This document shows, piece by piece, positions 4,003-13,293 of a stretch of DNA of 64,000 bases. The position numbers and the translations under genes are program-made. Origin of the DNA: an uncultured cyanobacterium (GTDB taxonomy: Bacteria > Cyanobacteriota > Cyanobacteriia > PCC-6307 > Cyanobiaceae). Position 1 is the first letter of the stretch. Each line of letters begins with the position of its first letter. The notes under the pieces are model-generated. The model was not told where the DNA came from, ran no database searches, and worked only from the letters and a program-made list of their open reading frames with translations. The DNA lies in NCBI GenBank assembly GCA_903871775.1, contig CAIQIA010000007.1, positions 62,001 through 126,000 on the forward strand, written 5' to 3'.

Positions 4003-4706
4003 TCAGAGCAGACCCTCGCCCCGTTGCTTGAGCCACTGGCGGTGGGCGGCGAACTCAACGTCGTGGCGACCCACCACCTGCCAGAACGCCTTGGAGTGGT
4101 TCGGGTGGATGAGGTGGCAGAGCTCATGGATCACGACGTAATCCACAATGCTGTGCGGTGCCTTGATGATGGCCCAGTTGAACACCAGCTGGCCGCGCTG
4201 GTTGCAGGAGCCCCAGCGCGAGCGGAACGCCCGCACCGATACCCCCGCAGGCGCCACGCCGATCTGCTGGGCGTAGCGGCTGGTTTTCTCCTGCAGGCGT
4301 TCGAGGGCACGGGCGCGATACCAGGAGTGGAGGTACTGCTGAATTCGTGCGTGCCGCTGCTCGGCCGGTTCCGCAGGGCGGATCGTGGCCTTGAAAGAGC
4401 CCCCCGCGAGGCACACCCCCACCGGGTGCCCCTCCTGCACCTTGAGGCGGTAGTGCCGCCCCAGGTAGGGGAAGGATTCTCCGCTCACCAGTTCCTTGGG
4501 GCGGTGCGGTGGCACCCGGTTCAGTTCAGCAACCTTGCCGCGGATCCAGGGGCGCTTCTGCTGGAGGATCGCGGCCACCCGCTCATCGTCCAGGTGCGCA
4601 GGGATCCGCACCTGCAGGTCACTGCCGACAATGTGGAGTGCAGCAGTTCGTCTGTTGGAGCGGACCACCTCCACCCGCAGACCCAGCACCTCCTGGGGGA
4701 TCGCCG

Positions 4707-4710
<4 letters not shown>
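4003..4710 (-). CDS. YgjP/M48-like zinc metallopeptidase, last gene of the restriction operon
   Basis: A 235-residue protein of the YgjP (DUF45) family. It has the zinc motif HELCH (195-199) and a third ligand, His205, in HPNHSKAFW. The preceding RSRWGSCNQRG is the other family signature. The biochemical role of YgjP is not settled. Relatives are often carried beside type I restriction genes, and here the start overlaps the hsdR stop by 4 nt, so it should be co-translated with HsdR. That makes it a candidate accessory factor of the restriction system, for example in HsdR proteolysis or maturation, but this is inference. Confidence 0.88.
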
Positions 4711-7682
<2,972 letters not shown>

Positions 7683-7684
7683 GG

Positions 7685-8800
7685 TTAGACGCTGACCCTC
7701 TTGCGACCTGAGAGGAGGTCTGAAGCAACAGCACTTTTCATATTTGTAAGTTGCATATTCTTTTCCATGAGCGCAAGACGAGTTCTTTGAATGCCATCAA
7801 AAATGTCTGCGACTTCTTTCTGGCGTTCCAGCGGTGGGACTGGAAGACGGTATATCTCTCGGATGACGCTAGGGTGCGCCTTGAACGAGTAATCAAAGCG
7901 CAATCTTCCGTGCTGAAATACAAGAGCAAGGTGGGCGTATCTGTAGTCAAGATGCGGTTCATTTATTCGCAGGTATCCGCAGACATTCGTAACCGAGAAC
8001 TTGTGACGCTTTCTGTGAAAAAGGCGACCGCCACCGTCTATTGACCATGTAATTAGTTCTTCGTCAAACATATGCTCTCCGTATTCGCCAAATTTCCCAT
8101 CCCCCTTTCCTGAGGAGGAGTAAATCGGGAACCCTCCAGGCAATCTTTGAATGTCTTGCTTGGAGATGATATTTCCCCGCCCAAGCGTGATAAGACCATC
8201 TGATTCAAGTTCTGAAACTGTCAGAGCATCGCCATCGGACGGGGAGAGATCAGGGGCTAGAAAAACCTCCTCAAGCAGACCCCTTTCTAGTTCTTCTGTT
8301 TTTGATATCTGAATAGTTGTCAGGCGTATATAGTTGTCAATCCCAGAGAGTATCTCGGCGATCTTCTTCTGCTCGGGGAGCGGGGGAAGGGGGAGGTGAT
8401 AAAGTTTTCTGATGACGCTAGGGTGTGCCTTTGTCTGGTAGTCAAAAGTTAGTTTTGAGTGCTGTAGTGCCAGTGAGGCATGGGCAAATCGGTAATCCAG
8501 AACTGATGTGTCTAACTTCAAATAACCAGACACATTGGTCACTGAAAACTTGTGCCGTGGTCTGTAGAAAAGGTTTCCGCCTCCATCAACCGACCATGTG
8601 ATCATTTCCTCGTCAAACATGTAGTCTCCGTATGTCCCAAAGAGACCCTCTCCCTTGGCGGAGGACGAGTAGATAGGGAATCCGCCTGGCTTGTTATTTA
8701 TGTCTATCTTTGAGATGATGTTTCCTCTACCAAGGGTTGCGACCCCTTTTTCTTCTAATTCATGAAGTGGATACTGCTCCCAGGGATAGGTGTCACTCAT
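7685..8800 (-). CDS. hsdS: Type I specificity subunit S with two homologous target-recognition domains
   Basis: A full-length 371-residue specificity subunit. The first recognition domain spans about 14-138 and the second about 197-321. They align without gaps at an offset of 183 residues, sharing LGRGNIISK, PGGFPIYSSS, MFDEE, RHKFSVTNV and KAHPSVIR. By eye about two thirds of positions are identical. Each is followed by a conserved helical spacer ([19 protein letters not shown] after the first). Two similar domains in the usual antiparallel arrangement predict a symmetric bipartite target. The gene overlaps the preceding half-size hsdS by 4 nt. It is strikingly AT-rich: I count 21 G+C in the 60 bases from 8281. 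Confidence 0.93.
   Translation of the reverse strand: MSDTYPWEQYPLHELEEKGVATLGRGNIISKIDINNKPGGFPIYSSSAKGEGLFGTYGDYMFDEEMITWSVDGGGNLFYRPRHKFSVTNVSGYLKLDTSVLDYRFAHASLALQHSKLTFDYQTKAHPSVIRKLYHLPLPPLPEQKKIAEILSGIDNYIRLTTIQISKTEELERGLLEEVFLAPDLSPSDGDALTVSELESDGLITLGRGNIISKQDIQRLPGGFPIYSSSGKGDGKFGEYGEHMFDEELITWSIDGGGRLFHRKRHKFSVTNVCGYLRINEPHLDYRYAHLALVFQHGRLRFDYSFKAHPSVIREIYRLPVPPLERQKEVADIFDGIQRTRLALMEKNMQLTNMKSAVASDLLSGRKRVSV
8337..8389. repeat. Copy 1 of a spacer repeat shared by the two hsdS genes
   Basis: This stretch encodes the [18 protein letters not shown] spacer helix that follows the first recognition domain of the full-length hsdS. Its first 44 bases (8337-8380) are identical to 8963-9006 in the neighbouring half-size hsdS. 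After one mismatch another 8 bases match. Such a repeat in the same orientation could support recombination between the two specificity genes. Confidence 0.9.
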
Positions 8801-9474
8801 ATCTCAACCCCTTCAAGAACCTGTGCCTCGCTGACCCTCTTGCGTCCTGAGAGTAGGTCCGACGCAACCGCCTTTTTTAATAATCGCAATTTTGACACCT
8901 TGCCAGAGGCGGCATTGCTTTGACTGGTGCTTGCTGAGATCTCTATTAATGAAATAAGGCGATCAATCCCAGAGAGTATCTCGGCGATCTTCTTCTGCTC
9001 GGGGAGTGGGGGAAGTGGGATCGGAAAGTCTTTCAGTTGTGATGTTTCTATGCTTTCAACAGTTGTCCCGCTCTTCATGCATGAATCAAGAATATCCTGA
9101 GAATTGCTTTTCATGTATTGAAATACATAGGAATCTTCAATTCCTGGTCTGACCGTGATCGCCTTTAGGTCCTGATTGATCGCTAGATTCCTTCCTGCAA
9201 CTGCTAGGGGAAGCGTGTGCCTAAGGATCCCGCTTCTTGTTACGACAAGAATCGCTCCTGCGGGTATCAAGGATGCCGAAGACTCGGATAAGGCAATTTC
9301 ATTTATTGAATCTTCTGAAAATCTTATGATGTCGCTTTTCATGTCTTTTGGGGACACCCAGGGTATCTCCCCTTTCCAGTAAGCAGGGTTTGCTTTTGAA
9401 GGTGTCCCTCCGCCTTTCCATTCACCAACATCTGCCAGTTTTGAAAGTCCCCAACTCACGGGAAAGTCACTCAT
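8797..9474 (-). CDS. Half-size type I specificity subunit S (single recognition domain)
   Basis: At 225 residues it is about half the normal HsdS length. It has one recognition domain opening [15 protein letters not shown] and containing [10 protein letters not shown], a common HsdS type distinct from both domains of the downstream hsdS. A single spacer follows ([18 protein letters not shown]). The C-terminus [14 protein letters not shown] is nearly the same as that of the full-length S. Half-size S subunits can dimerise to rebuild a symmetric specificity module. The start overlaps the hsdM stop by 8 nt and the end overlaps the next hsdS start by 4 nt. It could be a functional second specificity or a remnant of a rearranged gene; the intact frame and overlaps favour function. 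Confidence 0.9.
8963..9015. repeat. Copy 2 of the hsdS spacer repeat
   Basis: This segment matches 8337-8389 with 44 identical bases, one mismatch (T for C) and 8 more identical bases. It encodes the spacer helix of the half-size S subunit. A second, less exact pair encodes the shared C-terminal tail at about 7691-7733 and 8830-8872. Confidence 0.9.
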
Positions 9475-11539
9475 ATCCCAACTCCTTCAGGAACCCGTGC
9501 ATCACTGCTTCTGCTTCCTTGACCTCAGCATCAATCTGAGCGAGTGAGACCCCGTACTTCTCCCACCACCGCTCAAACTGCTGAATCACCGCATCTGAAG
9601 CGTCTCCCAGGTGCTGGCGGATCTGGGACTTCTCTTGAATGTCCTCCCGAAACTTCAGATACTCAGCATCCTTGGGAACCAGGACGCCGCTGACATCAAA
9701 ACCTTCAAGGATCTCCTGGATGTATTCGCTCTGAATTTCCTTGATAGGCACCCCACCATGAAGGATGCCCCGCACATCAAAGGGTTCAGGTGGTGGTGAG
9801 GTGTCTGCGTACCGACGGATATTTAGGTTGTGGTCGTTCTCCCGTATCTCCTCAAGCGGCACCACCCGTGAGAACCGCTTGATTTCGTTGTAGGCGTCAA
9901 AACACCCCACCACCTTCTCAATGTCATCGTCCCGTAGAAGGTTCTGGTTCTTGCCCTCTTGGTAGTCCAGTTCAGCATTGATGAAGAGCACCTTGCCACG
10001 ACGCTCCATCACCTTGTTCTTGTTGATGATCAGCAGTGCTGCAGGGATACCTGTGCCATAGAACAACCCTGATGGCAGACCGATCACTGCTTCCACCAGA
10101 TCGTCTTCCAGGATGCCTTTGCGGATCTCACCTTCCTGACCACCACGGAACAGAACACCGTGAGGCACCACCACACCCATGACGCCCTGTTGATTCAGTG
10201 AGGCGATCATGTGCTGAACGAATGCCAGGTCTCCTGCGTCCTTGGGCGGAATGCCATAGCGATACCTGCCATACCCATCGTGTTCCGCCAGTTCCCGTCC
10301 CCAGTTCTTCAAGGAGAAGGGTGGGTTGGCGATCACCCGATCAAACCGCATCAGTTCGCCGTGCTCCACATGCTGCGGTTCGCCCAGGGTGTCTCCTTTG
10401 CGAATGTCCGCATTGAAGAACCCGTGCAGGAACATATTGAGTTTGCAGATTGCCCAGGTGCTCAGGTTCATCTCCTGACCGAACAACTGAATGTTGTTTT
10501 CGTTCTCCCCGTGCGTTGCCAGGTAGTTCCTTGACTGGAGCAGCATCCCCCCTGAACCACAGGTCGGATCCAGCACCTTCATCCCCGCATGGGGTTTGAT
10601 CAGAGACACCAGCAGTTTCACGACCTGCGGTGGCGTGAAGAACTCACCACCCTTCTTGCCCGCTGAGTCAGCGAACATTTTGATCAGGTACTCGTAGGCA
10701 GCACCGAGGAGGTCAGGACGCTCAAAGTCCTCGTTCCTCAACCTGAAGGTGGAGTAGTGGGAGAGCAGGTCCCTGAGTTTGCGGTCGTTGAGTTTGTTTT
10801 TGTTGTTGAAGTCAATGGAGACCAGCACTCCCTCCAGAACGGGGTTCTGCTCTTCAATCGCTTCGGTTGCCTTGTTCAGGGCGTCCCCGATGTCGTGCTT
10901 GAGGTCCTTGAGGTTCTCCCACCTCGCCCGATCAGGCACATAGAACGCCTTGTCGTACTCGTCCTGGTCCTCTGCCAGTACTGCTGCCTGTTCCTCGGTC
11001 TTGCCCCGATCCAGGTAGTACTGGATCACGCCCTCCCGTGCCTCCTCAAAGGCATCGGACAGACGCTTGAGGAACAGCATCCCGAAGATGTAGTCCTTGA
11101 ATTCCGAGGCATCCATGCTTCCCCGCAGGATGTCGGCACTTTTCCAAAGGAACGACTCCAGTTGGGAGAGGGTCAGTTTCTGCCCGATCTGGAAGCTGGG
11201 TTCGGGGCTGGCCCCGTTGCCGCCGTTGGCGCGTGCGGTGCTGCGGCGGGTGGTGGGTGCTGAGGGTGCTTCGTAGCGAGTGCCGCCAGGGATCCCCTCG
11301 GCCAGGGCGATGGATCCACCACGCCCACGGCCCTTCACGATCAGCCCAAAGTCCAGCGCCTTCTGCCGCACCAGCTCGTACTCCTCCTCGCTGATCGGGC
11401 GCTCGGCTGCCCGCCCCAGCGCCTCCCGGGCCGCCAGGTTGCCCATGGTGCTGCCATCCGGCGGCAGCACCTCCAGCAGCAGATCCCCCAGGTCGTCGTC
11501 GCTGGCTTCAGGGGTGGTGAAGGCGGCGGAGTCGCTCAC
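9467..11539 (-). CDS. hsdM: Type I DNA methyltransferase subunit M with N-terminal winged-helix extension
   Basis: HsdM methylates adenine in the target chosen by S. This 690-residue form has the SAM-binding motif I DPTCGSGG (324-331) and the N6-adenine catalytic motif NPPF (405-408), plus [11 protein letters not shown] just before the catalytic core. Residues about 15-80 form an extra domain ending in [15 protein letters not shown]. It resembles winged-helix extensions on some other type I M subunits and is joined by a linker rich in Ala, Ser, Thr and Asn. DNA for this extension is very GC-rich (47 of 60 bases from 11401), while the methylase core is not (31 of 60 from 10801). It heads the operon M-S-S-R-YgjP. 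Confidence 0.95.
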
Positions 11540-11629: not shown

Positions 11630-12919
11630 TCAGTCCACCACCTCCGGATCCAGATCCAGTCCCGGGTAGAGGAAGGCGCGGCTGAGCCGCTGGCAGTCGC
11701 CGGGGCTCACCGAGGCCTCGCGCAGGGTGGCCTCCCAGCTGCTGGCCACGGTGTCGACGATCCGCGTGGCGATTGCTTCGGCTTCCGCCGGCTTGAGCAG
11801 AAAGCGACCGGCCGCGGCCAGAATCGCCCGTCGGTTGGCCCAGCGGCTGGGGCTGCGGTCCACCAGGCCGCAGGCCATGGCCAGGTCGCGGCGGGTTTCG
11901 GCTTGCAGCGGTGCGGGCGTGAGGTCGTAGGCGGGGCTGAGCTGCCAGCTTGTTGACCTGGCCAGCAACGCATGGTTGCGGGGGTGGTCGTCAGTGTTCG
12001 AGACCGCGGCGTTGAAACAGATCCGGCCGAACAGCTCCCGCAGATCCACCGCCGGCTGGGCGCTGACGCGGCGCAGCTCATCGGCGAGCAGCAGGTACGA
12101 CCACCTGCCGCGATCGGTGGCACTGTCATCCGCCTGCAGCAGGGTGACGGCGCTGACCATGCGATGGCGCCGGTATCCCGCCTCGCTCCAGTCGCGGTCA
12201 AAGCGCTTGACCAGAAGCACATCGGCATCGCCAACTCTGGTGAGGCGGCTTTCGGCCACCTGCAGCCCGCAGCGGCGGGCCAGCAGCAGCAGGCCGTGCT
12301 CCACCCGAGGCTGGTTCCAGCTGTCGGCAGGCGCTGGGAACTTGGCCAGCCAGAGGGCGTTGTCGGCCTCCACGGTGGTCTTGGGGCGGGCGCCGCCCAT
12401 CGACGTGCCGGCCTGACCAATCAGCTCCTCCACCTGCTCCAGGGCTGAGCCTGCTTGTAGGGGTTCCTCGCGGAGGATCGCATCAGCCGCCTGCTTGATG
12501 CGCTCCAGATCAAGGGTGCGGTGGAAGCGGAGCTGCGGCGCCGGTGGATCAACGCCGCGGCCAAAGCCCACCGCACCGCAGCGATCGTCCGGTCCGAGCA
12601 GCAACAGATCGAAATCGCTGGGCTCCCCCAGGCCGCCATGGCGAGCGATCACCCGGCGACCCCAGTGATCGGGCAGGGCATCGCGCAGTGCCCCGAAGAA
12701 GCCCCCCAGGCGGGCCGTCTCGAAGGGGCCCTGGCGCAGTCTCAGCTGCACCGGATCGAGCTCCACAGCGTCCGGCCGCTCGCGGTAGCGGCGGCCATAG
12801 ACAAACGTGCCCACCGGTTGGCCCTGCCGATCGCGGCCCTGCGAAAACCGGCCCGCCGTGACGAACGCCGTGCTGCCCGGCAGGACCACATAGACGTAGC
12901 ACTCGAGATCCGATGGCAT
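11630..12919 (-). CDS. hipA: HipA-family serine/threonine kinase toxin
   Basis: HipA kinases phosphorylate translation factors such as glutamyl-tRNA synthetase and induce dormancy. The 429-residue length is normal. It has the N-terminal HipA domain (LGGFFGALRDALPDHWGRRV), a nucleotide-binding region around LIGQAGTSMGGARPKTTV, the catalytic loop SNTDDHPRNHALL and the metal-binding AYDLTP. All expected motifs are present. It lies 32 nt downstream of the XRE-type gene, forming a hipBA operon, with 90 nt separating it from hsdM on the same strand. Readthrough into the restriction operon is possible. Confidence 0.92.
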   Translation of the reverse strand: MPSDLECYVYVVLPGSTAFVTAGRFSQGRDRQGQPVGTFVYGRRYRERPDAVELDPVQLRLRQGPFETARLGGFFGALRDALPDHWGRRVIARHGGLGEPSDFDLLLLGPDDRCGAVGFGRGVDPPAPQLRFHRTLDLERIKQAADAILREEPLQAGSALEQVEELIGQAGTSMGGARPKTTVEADNALWLAKFPAPADSWNQPRVEHGLLLLARRCGLQVAESRLTRVGDADVLLVKRFDRDWSEAGYRRHRMVSAVTLLQADDSATDRGRWSYLLLADELRRVSAQPAVDLRELFGRICFNAAVSNTDDHPRNHALLARSTSWQLSPAYDLTPAPLQAETRRDLAMACGLVDRSPSRWANRRAILAAAGRFLLKPAEAEAIATRIVDTVASSWEATLREASVSPGDCQRLSRAFLYPGLDLDPEVVD

Positions 12920-12951
12920 GACAGGAGAGCGCCAGGGCTGGGCGAGGAGGA

Positions 12952-13293
12952 TCAGAAGTCGTCGTCAAAACGACGGCGGCGAGGGGCCTGGCCCGGTTGG
13001 CGGGACGCCTCGAGGGCCTTGCCCTCCTCATCCCGATCGGGATCGGCCACCTCGGCCAGCTGATCAAGCAGCCCCAGCACCCAGAGAGCACCGAGGTAGG
13101 CGGCCATCGAGGTGCCGGGCTTGCCGCGCTCCACATCGGCCACGGTGAAGCGGCTCACGCCCATCCGCTCGGCCACGTCCTCCAGCCGCCAGCGGCGCCG
13201 CAACCGGGCGGTGCGGATGTTGCGCCCCAGCCGCTGCAGGGCCAGCTCCAGGGCCGCCGGGGGGTGCTGAACGATGGGACTGAGCTGAGCCAA
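12952..13293 (-). CDS. hipB: HipB-like XRE-family antitoxin and repressor
   Basis: A 113-residue protein with a lambda-repressor-type helix-turn-helix at about residues 24-70 (RTARLRRRWRLEDVAERMG, then SRFTVADVERGKPGTS). The C-terminal tail is charged and ends RRRRFDDDF. It is placed directly upstream of hipA, as for HipB, which neutralises HipA and represses the operon. Direct repeats at 13316-13327 and 13347-13358, upstream of its start, are candidate binding sites. Confidence 0.88.
   Translation of the reverse strand: MAQLSPIVQHPPAALELALQRLGRNIRTARLRRRWRLEDVAERMGVSRFTVADVERGKPGTSMAAYLGALWVLGLLDQLAEVADPDRDEEGKALEASRQPGQAPRRRRFDDDF

Follow-up and report, generated by a model that had tools for sequence, protein, structure and literature searches.

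Does an HsdS protein whose two recognition domains (TRDs) are similar, but not identical, read the same half-site twice, and is its target consequently symmetric? The question is raised by a full-length hsdS gene located in the window, the stretch of 64,000 nucleotides that was analysed here, where it belongs to an operon encoded entirely on the minus strand in the order hsdM, half-length hsdS, full-length hsdS, hsdR:

9467..11539, minus strand: hsdM, an N6-adenine methylase with an NPPF motif (Pfam N6_Mtase and HsdM_N).
8797..9474, minus strand: half-length hsdS, 225 aa, with one TRD (H), unrelated to the W domains of the full-length protein, and a conserved region (Pfam Methylase_S).
7685..8800, minus strand: full-length hsdS, 371 aa, arranged as TRD1-CR1-TRD2-CR2 (two Pfam Methylase_S stretches; whole-length match to HsdS structures).
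4707..7682, minus strand: hsdR, with a nuclease and a SWI2/SNF2-type motor (Pfam HSDR_N, SWI2_SNF2 and T1R_D3-like).

Consecutive reading frames overlap by 8 nt (hsdM and half hsdS) and by 4 nt (half and full hsdS), and a gap of 2 nt separates full hsdS from hsdR; the plus strand across 7685-8800 holds many stops, the hsdS ORF being that of the minus strand. As judged from the predicted domains of hsdR, hsdM and hsdS, which are those expected, the locus is a type I restriction-modification system. Its G+C content is 47% in the S genes and 58-60% in hsdM and hsdR, that of the window being 69%. HsdM carries an N-terminal extension of approximately 115 aa before HsdM_N, which is present in most close orthologues and absent in two genomes, G302 and G603. 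Immediately upstream of the operon, 11630-13293 encodes a HipA-like kinase and its HTH partner; on the other side, a YgjP-like metallopeptidase (4003-4710) overlaps the end of hsdR.

Within the full-length S protein, two TRDs (W1 and W2) alternate with two conserved regions (CR1 and CR2):

8387..8761, minus strand: TRD1 (W1), residues 14-138, sharing 68% identity with TRD2 and 79% with the TRD that is N-terminal in the S protein of G390, a genome of the same taxonomic family.
8231..8386, minus strand: CR1, the central conserved region with a long helix, residues 139-190 (secondary structure of the model; nucleotide block common to orthologues).
7838..8212, minus strand: TRD2 (W2), residues 197-321 (alignment to TRD1; model of TRD2 with CR2).
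7688..7837, minus strand: CR2, the C-terminal conserved region with a long helix, residues 322-371 (models).

The earlier note had described the two TRDs as aligning without gaps at about two thirds identity, and this is borne out by the count: residues 14-138 and 197-321 agree at 85/125 positions (68%), and the halves of full HsdS give a BLOSUM62 local score of 522 against each other, the best of 300 shuffles being 54. At the nucleotide level W1 and W2 are 65% identical, with 70, 82 and 44% at codon positions 1, 2 and 3, respectively; with a dN of 0.25 and synonymous sites too saturated for an NG86 distance to be computed, the similarity is judged to be old and to have been kept by selection on the protein. 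A recent intragenic duplication of one TRD was also considered, and was ruled out by the saturated synonymous sites and the third-position identity of 44%. The full-length S is the most self-similar by TRD alone among 47 two-TRD S proteins, and also ranks first by whole repeat unit among 78 S-like ORFs, both samples being mostly cyanobacterial, with ORFs picked by simple motif rules. The proteins that follow reach 53-54% (L100 and L111) and approximately 40% (L095, L117 and L122). The suggestion that such an arrangement is unusual for a full-length S thus holds in part: the protein belongs to a minority class, of which it is the extreme in the sample, but homologous TRD pairs occur elsewhere and form an accepted category. 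The two cyanobacterial S proteins with TRD pairs at 53-54% identity (L100 1478-2671 and L111 1306-2733) are further candidates for symmetric targets. In another S protein (L078 107-1408, from G080), residues 3-117 match residues 287-407 at 54%, an offset that looks permuted with respect to normal TRD repeats.

Relatives of the W TRDs were recovered from a contig scan with both TRDs (seven), a viral scan (three) and a plasmid search (one, from Sulfitobacter), and their hosts are Chloroflexota, Thermodesulfobacteriota, Parcubacteria and Pseudomonadota, as well as viral contigs. In 11/11 relatives the W TRD is present once per S, beside an unrelated partner TRD, being N-terminal in L024-26, L028-30 and L032 and C-terminal in L022, L023, L027 and L031; since the family is found at both locations, position does not define a W TRD. 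The identity of these relatives to W1 or W2 is 53-68%, a range that includes the value between W1 and W2 themselves (68%), and by these alignments W1 and W2 are assigned to one widespread TRD family. Across 400 genomes from the taxonomic family of the window, a search for further W copies yielded only one, the N-terminal TRD of the G390 S (79% identical to W1). In the TRD tree W1 and W2 are joined at 84/85, and placing W1 with the G390 TRD instead costs only 0.48 lnL (p-AU 0.457).

The branch leading to W2 in this tree is long, at 0.68 changes per column, and 40/125 residues differ between W1 and W2, several of them non-conservatively; differences of the latter kind fall in possible contact loops, at residues 122-123 (QT versus SF) and also at 53, 76, 81 and 118. 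Few residues can set the specificity of a TRD, and W1 and W2 could have diverged in contact residues such that their half-sites differ wholly or partly, the target being asymmetric or quasi-palindromic only. This possibility must be weighed against the fact that W1 and W2 each keep 48/48 of the columns that at least 90% of the 11 relatives conserve, and that the differences lie at columns varying freely among the relatives, whose mean column entropy is 2.01 bits at the 40 columns where W1 and W2 differ versus 0.63 at the shared ones. Such a column pattern is what two domains of one specificity would look like, and divergent half-sites are regarded as distinctly unlikely, although, with 40 residues differing, the half-sites could still depart from each other by one base or in degeneracy. 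The search for a solved homologue from which to take the half-site gave a TRD profile match to 1yf2 only, covering just its C-terminal part and the conserved region, and the phage and plasmid matches searched for a characterised homologue were distant or, in the case of Sulfitobacter, uncharacterised. Since no W-family member encountered here has a known motif, the specificity that W1 and W2 are proposed to share is deduced from sequence.

The model of full S (pLDDT 68, pTM 0.65) matches complete HsdS structures end to end, namely 1yf2 (Z 20.0, 321 residues aligned), 1ydx and 7bst; its confidence in TRD2 is low because the partner TRDs of the relatives are unrelated. Modelled alone, TRD2 with CR2 reaches a pLDDT of 84.8, and its matches are to 1yf2, 7vru, 5ybb and 1ydx, in their C-terminal halves. 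According to these models, long conserved helices connect the two TRDs of full-length S, and in HsdS the two TRDs are known to sit in inverted orientation (PMC3874165). We favor a reading in which the operon is a complete type I operon and TRD shuffling has put two members of one TRD family into one S, and hold it to be probable. Full S would sit in the M2S methylase and in the R2M2S nuclease, its coiled-coil would hold both TRDs in inverted orientation, and W1 and W2 would each read the same half-site, the target being a symmetric bipartite N6-methyladenine motif of the form X-Nn-X'. Since both TRDs come from one conserved family, this family occurs at either position, and there are proven precedents (see below), a symmetric bipartite target is likely for full S. 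The prediction of one symmetric motif from a diverged pair (68%) within one S provides a cheap and clean test of position-independent reading by TRDs, and a palindromic m6A motif in a strain of this kind may have a source other than a type II enzyme. Across a genome, avoidance of a type I target is expected to be weak.

The presence of a second S gene in the operon evokes the question of whether it also contributes a target. The half S is intact, its overlaps with neighboring genes look translationally coupled, and it keeps the CR1-type and C-terminal conserved blocks; in addition, the single-TRD JHP0785 of H. pylori J99 has been linked to the palindromic motif RTAY-N5-RTAY (PMC3936762), and engineered half-S subunits have been found to form active dimers (PMC6158711). 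Half S and full S could thus both be active with the same HsdM, generating an H-H palindrome through a half-S homodimer and a W-W palindrome through full S. However, the conserved region of the half S is longer by approximately 12 residues of low complexity ([12 protein letters not shown]), which other S proteins lack, TRD1 alone of JHP1422 is inactive (PMC3936762), and in the SpnIV system the downstream hsdS is silent and a palindrome at first ascribed to a dimerising TRD of HsdS proved to stem from another enzyme (PMC6265443); the last two cases call for caution both on the functioning of the half S and on the assignment of motifs without single-gene expression. Activity of both S proteins is considered unlikely; it would add to the symmetric reading of full S by twin W domains and does not exclude it. 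The half S may be inactive, or may act as a homodimer with a palindrome of its own. The hsdM 3' end recurs, out of frame, as the tail of the half S, which is probably the remnant of a first, once full-length hsdS, left after the slot was duplicated in tandem and one TRD was lost.

Orthologous operons (n=13, all from the same taxonomic family, with hsdM 76-95% identical) place this arrangement within a series. One full S is found in G270, G625, G607-C3, G578, G572, G449, G561, G603-C6 and G390, and probably in G603-C2, where hsdR was not seen, while G302 (L057) and G607-C13 (L145 3368-5859) have a tandem pair of full S genes flanked by a single hsdM and a single hsdR. In G495 (L146 3289-4452) a 387-aa S reads as two fused half-S units, which meet internally at [17 protein letters not shown], and is possibly a natural fusion of two single-TRD S genes. 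The TRDs of the orthologues are mutually unrelated, their CR1 block shows 84-100% identity across 22-58 nt, and similarity is also usual at their 3' end; a homologous TRD pair was found in 0/15 of the other full-length S proteins of orthologous operons. The H domain, which is N-terminal in the half S of the window, occurs at 59% identity in C-terminal position in the G449 S. Furthermore, the first S of G607-C13 ends in VLEGVGI and the half S of the window in VLEGVEI, both endings being the duplicated hsdM 3' end read out of frame, and the tandem-S junction of G607 repeats the hsdM 3' end almost exactly. In G390 (L147), hsdM is broken by a TAA stop, the S with the W1-like TRD is open, and S and hsdR are separated by approximately 2.7 kb containing small ORFs. 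These comparisons indicate that the locus is a TRD-shuffling slot that happens to hold a like pair. The simplest history, whose steps and order we infer, would be that the slot was duplicated in tandem, the first S lost one TRD and the second S exchanged a cassette. The series of orthologues (one S, two S, half plus full, fused halves) shows hsdS slots gaining, losing and swapping domains in picocyanobacteria.

The TRD cassettes of the window are bordered by three pairs of direct repeats (D1-D3):

8337..8394, minus strand: D1, copy in CR1 of full hsdS; 58 nt, matching the second copy at 56/58 positions (97%), both in one frame.
8963..9020, minus strand: D1, copy in the conserved region of half hsdS; 58 nt, the spacing between copies being 626 nt.
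7690..7738, minus strand: D2, 3' end of full hsdS ([14 protein letters not shown]); 49 nt, 86%.
8829..8877, minus strand: D2, 3' end of half hsdS; 49 nt, 86%.
8792..8826, minus strand: D3, stop of half hsdS and start of full hsdS, a copy of the hsdM 3' end in another frame; 35 nt, 31/35 (89%).
9466..9500, minus strand: D3, hsdM 3' end and start of half hsdS; 35 nt, 31/35 (89%).

These repeats raise the possibility that the locus switches specificity, in that recombination at D1 would delete 626 bp and fuse H to W2, and recombination at D3 or D2 would leave full or half S alone. The D1 copies are nearly identical (56/58), direct and in the same frame, and the computed deletion product is an uninterrupted in-frame H-CR1-W2-CR2 protein, so that recombination would give an ordinary asymmetric S such as those of the orthologues; orthologues include both single-S and two-S alleles, and the loss, gain and movement of TRDs via repeats have been described in H. 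pylori (PMC3077401). On the other hand, a deletion could be reversed only with a second copy at hand, 0 pairs of inverted repeats of at least 25 nt, on which an invertase of the SpnIII/SpnIV kind would act, were found in 7600-9500, and a Pfam scan of seven neighboring proteins identified no recombinase. No second strain of the same species carrying the operon was found, the comparison being between species; because the observed divergence is between species, shuffling is demonstrated on an evolutionary scale only. Switching is considered unlikely, and is compatible with a symmetric reading of the locus in its present form by W1 and W2. It is very unlikely that all three states exist with the single HsdM, namely a W-W palindrome, an H-H palindrome from a half-S dimer and, after D1 recombination, an asymmetric H-W target. 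In view of the half hsdS and the cassette repeats, both overlooked in the earlier note, the methylome of the strain may display a second motif that does not stem from full S.

Several known systems provide a frame for these observations. It is a commonly accepted rule that homologous TRDs lead to palindromic sites and non-homologous ones to non-palindromic sites (PMC3936762). M.BstXI, described as [CCA]~[CCA], carries two similar, non-identical TRDs and targets CCA-N6-TGG (PMC3874165), and thus resembles the S of the window in being a full-length S with two similar, non-identical TRDs; however, M.BstXI is listed with type II systems that have a type I-like modification part, whereas in the window a type I hsdR is present and the full hsdS is accompanied by a half hsdS. 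In H. pylori, JHP1422 carries one unique and two identical TRDs (TRD2 and TRD3), the like pair recognizing AAG-N5-CTT and the unlike pair AAG-N6-TAAAG (PMC3936762). JHP1422/JHP1423 (M.Hpy99XV) and the window share the presence of three TRDs per HsdM, one unique and two alike (PMC3936762), but in JHP1422 a single ORF encodes all three and the two alike do not differ, while the window distributes them over a half S and a full S, with 68% identity and an ancient divergence between the two that are alike. From M.BstXI and JHP1422 it follows that the principle of a palindrome read by like TRDs is already known.

The remaining likenesses concern the construction of the locus. With its single TRD and conserved region, the half S is similar in layout to JHP0785, the M.AhdI class and engineered half-S subunits (PMC3936762, PMC3874165, PMC6158711). 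The SpnIV tvr locus likewise contains hsdS cassettes between direct repeats (PMC6265443), but differs in that no TvrR-like recombinase was seen next to the hsdS genes of the window, among the seven neighboring proteins scanned. The domain-movement (DOMO) loci of H. pylori (groups 2 and 3) also display x-(TRD)-y repeats, TRDs at either position and alleles with one, two or three TRDs (PMC3077401); their shuffling takes place within one species, whereas the evidence here is between species of one cyanobacterial family. The locus in the window is thus a new and instructive member of a known arrangement.
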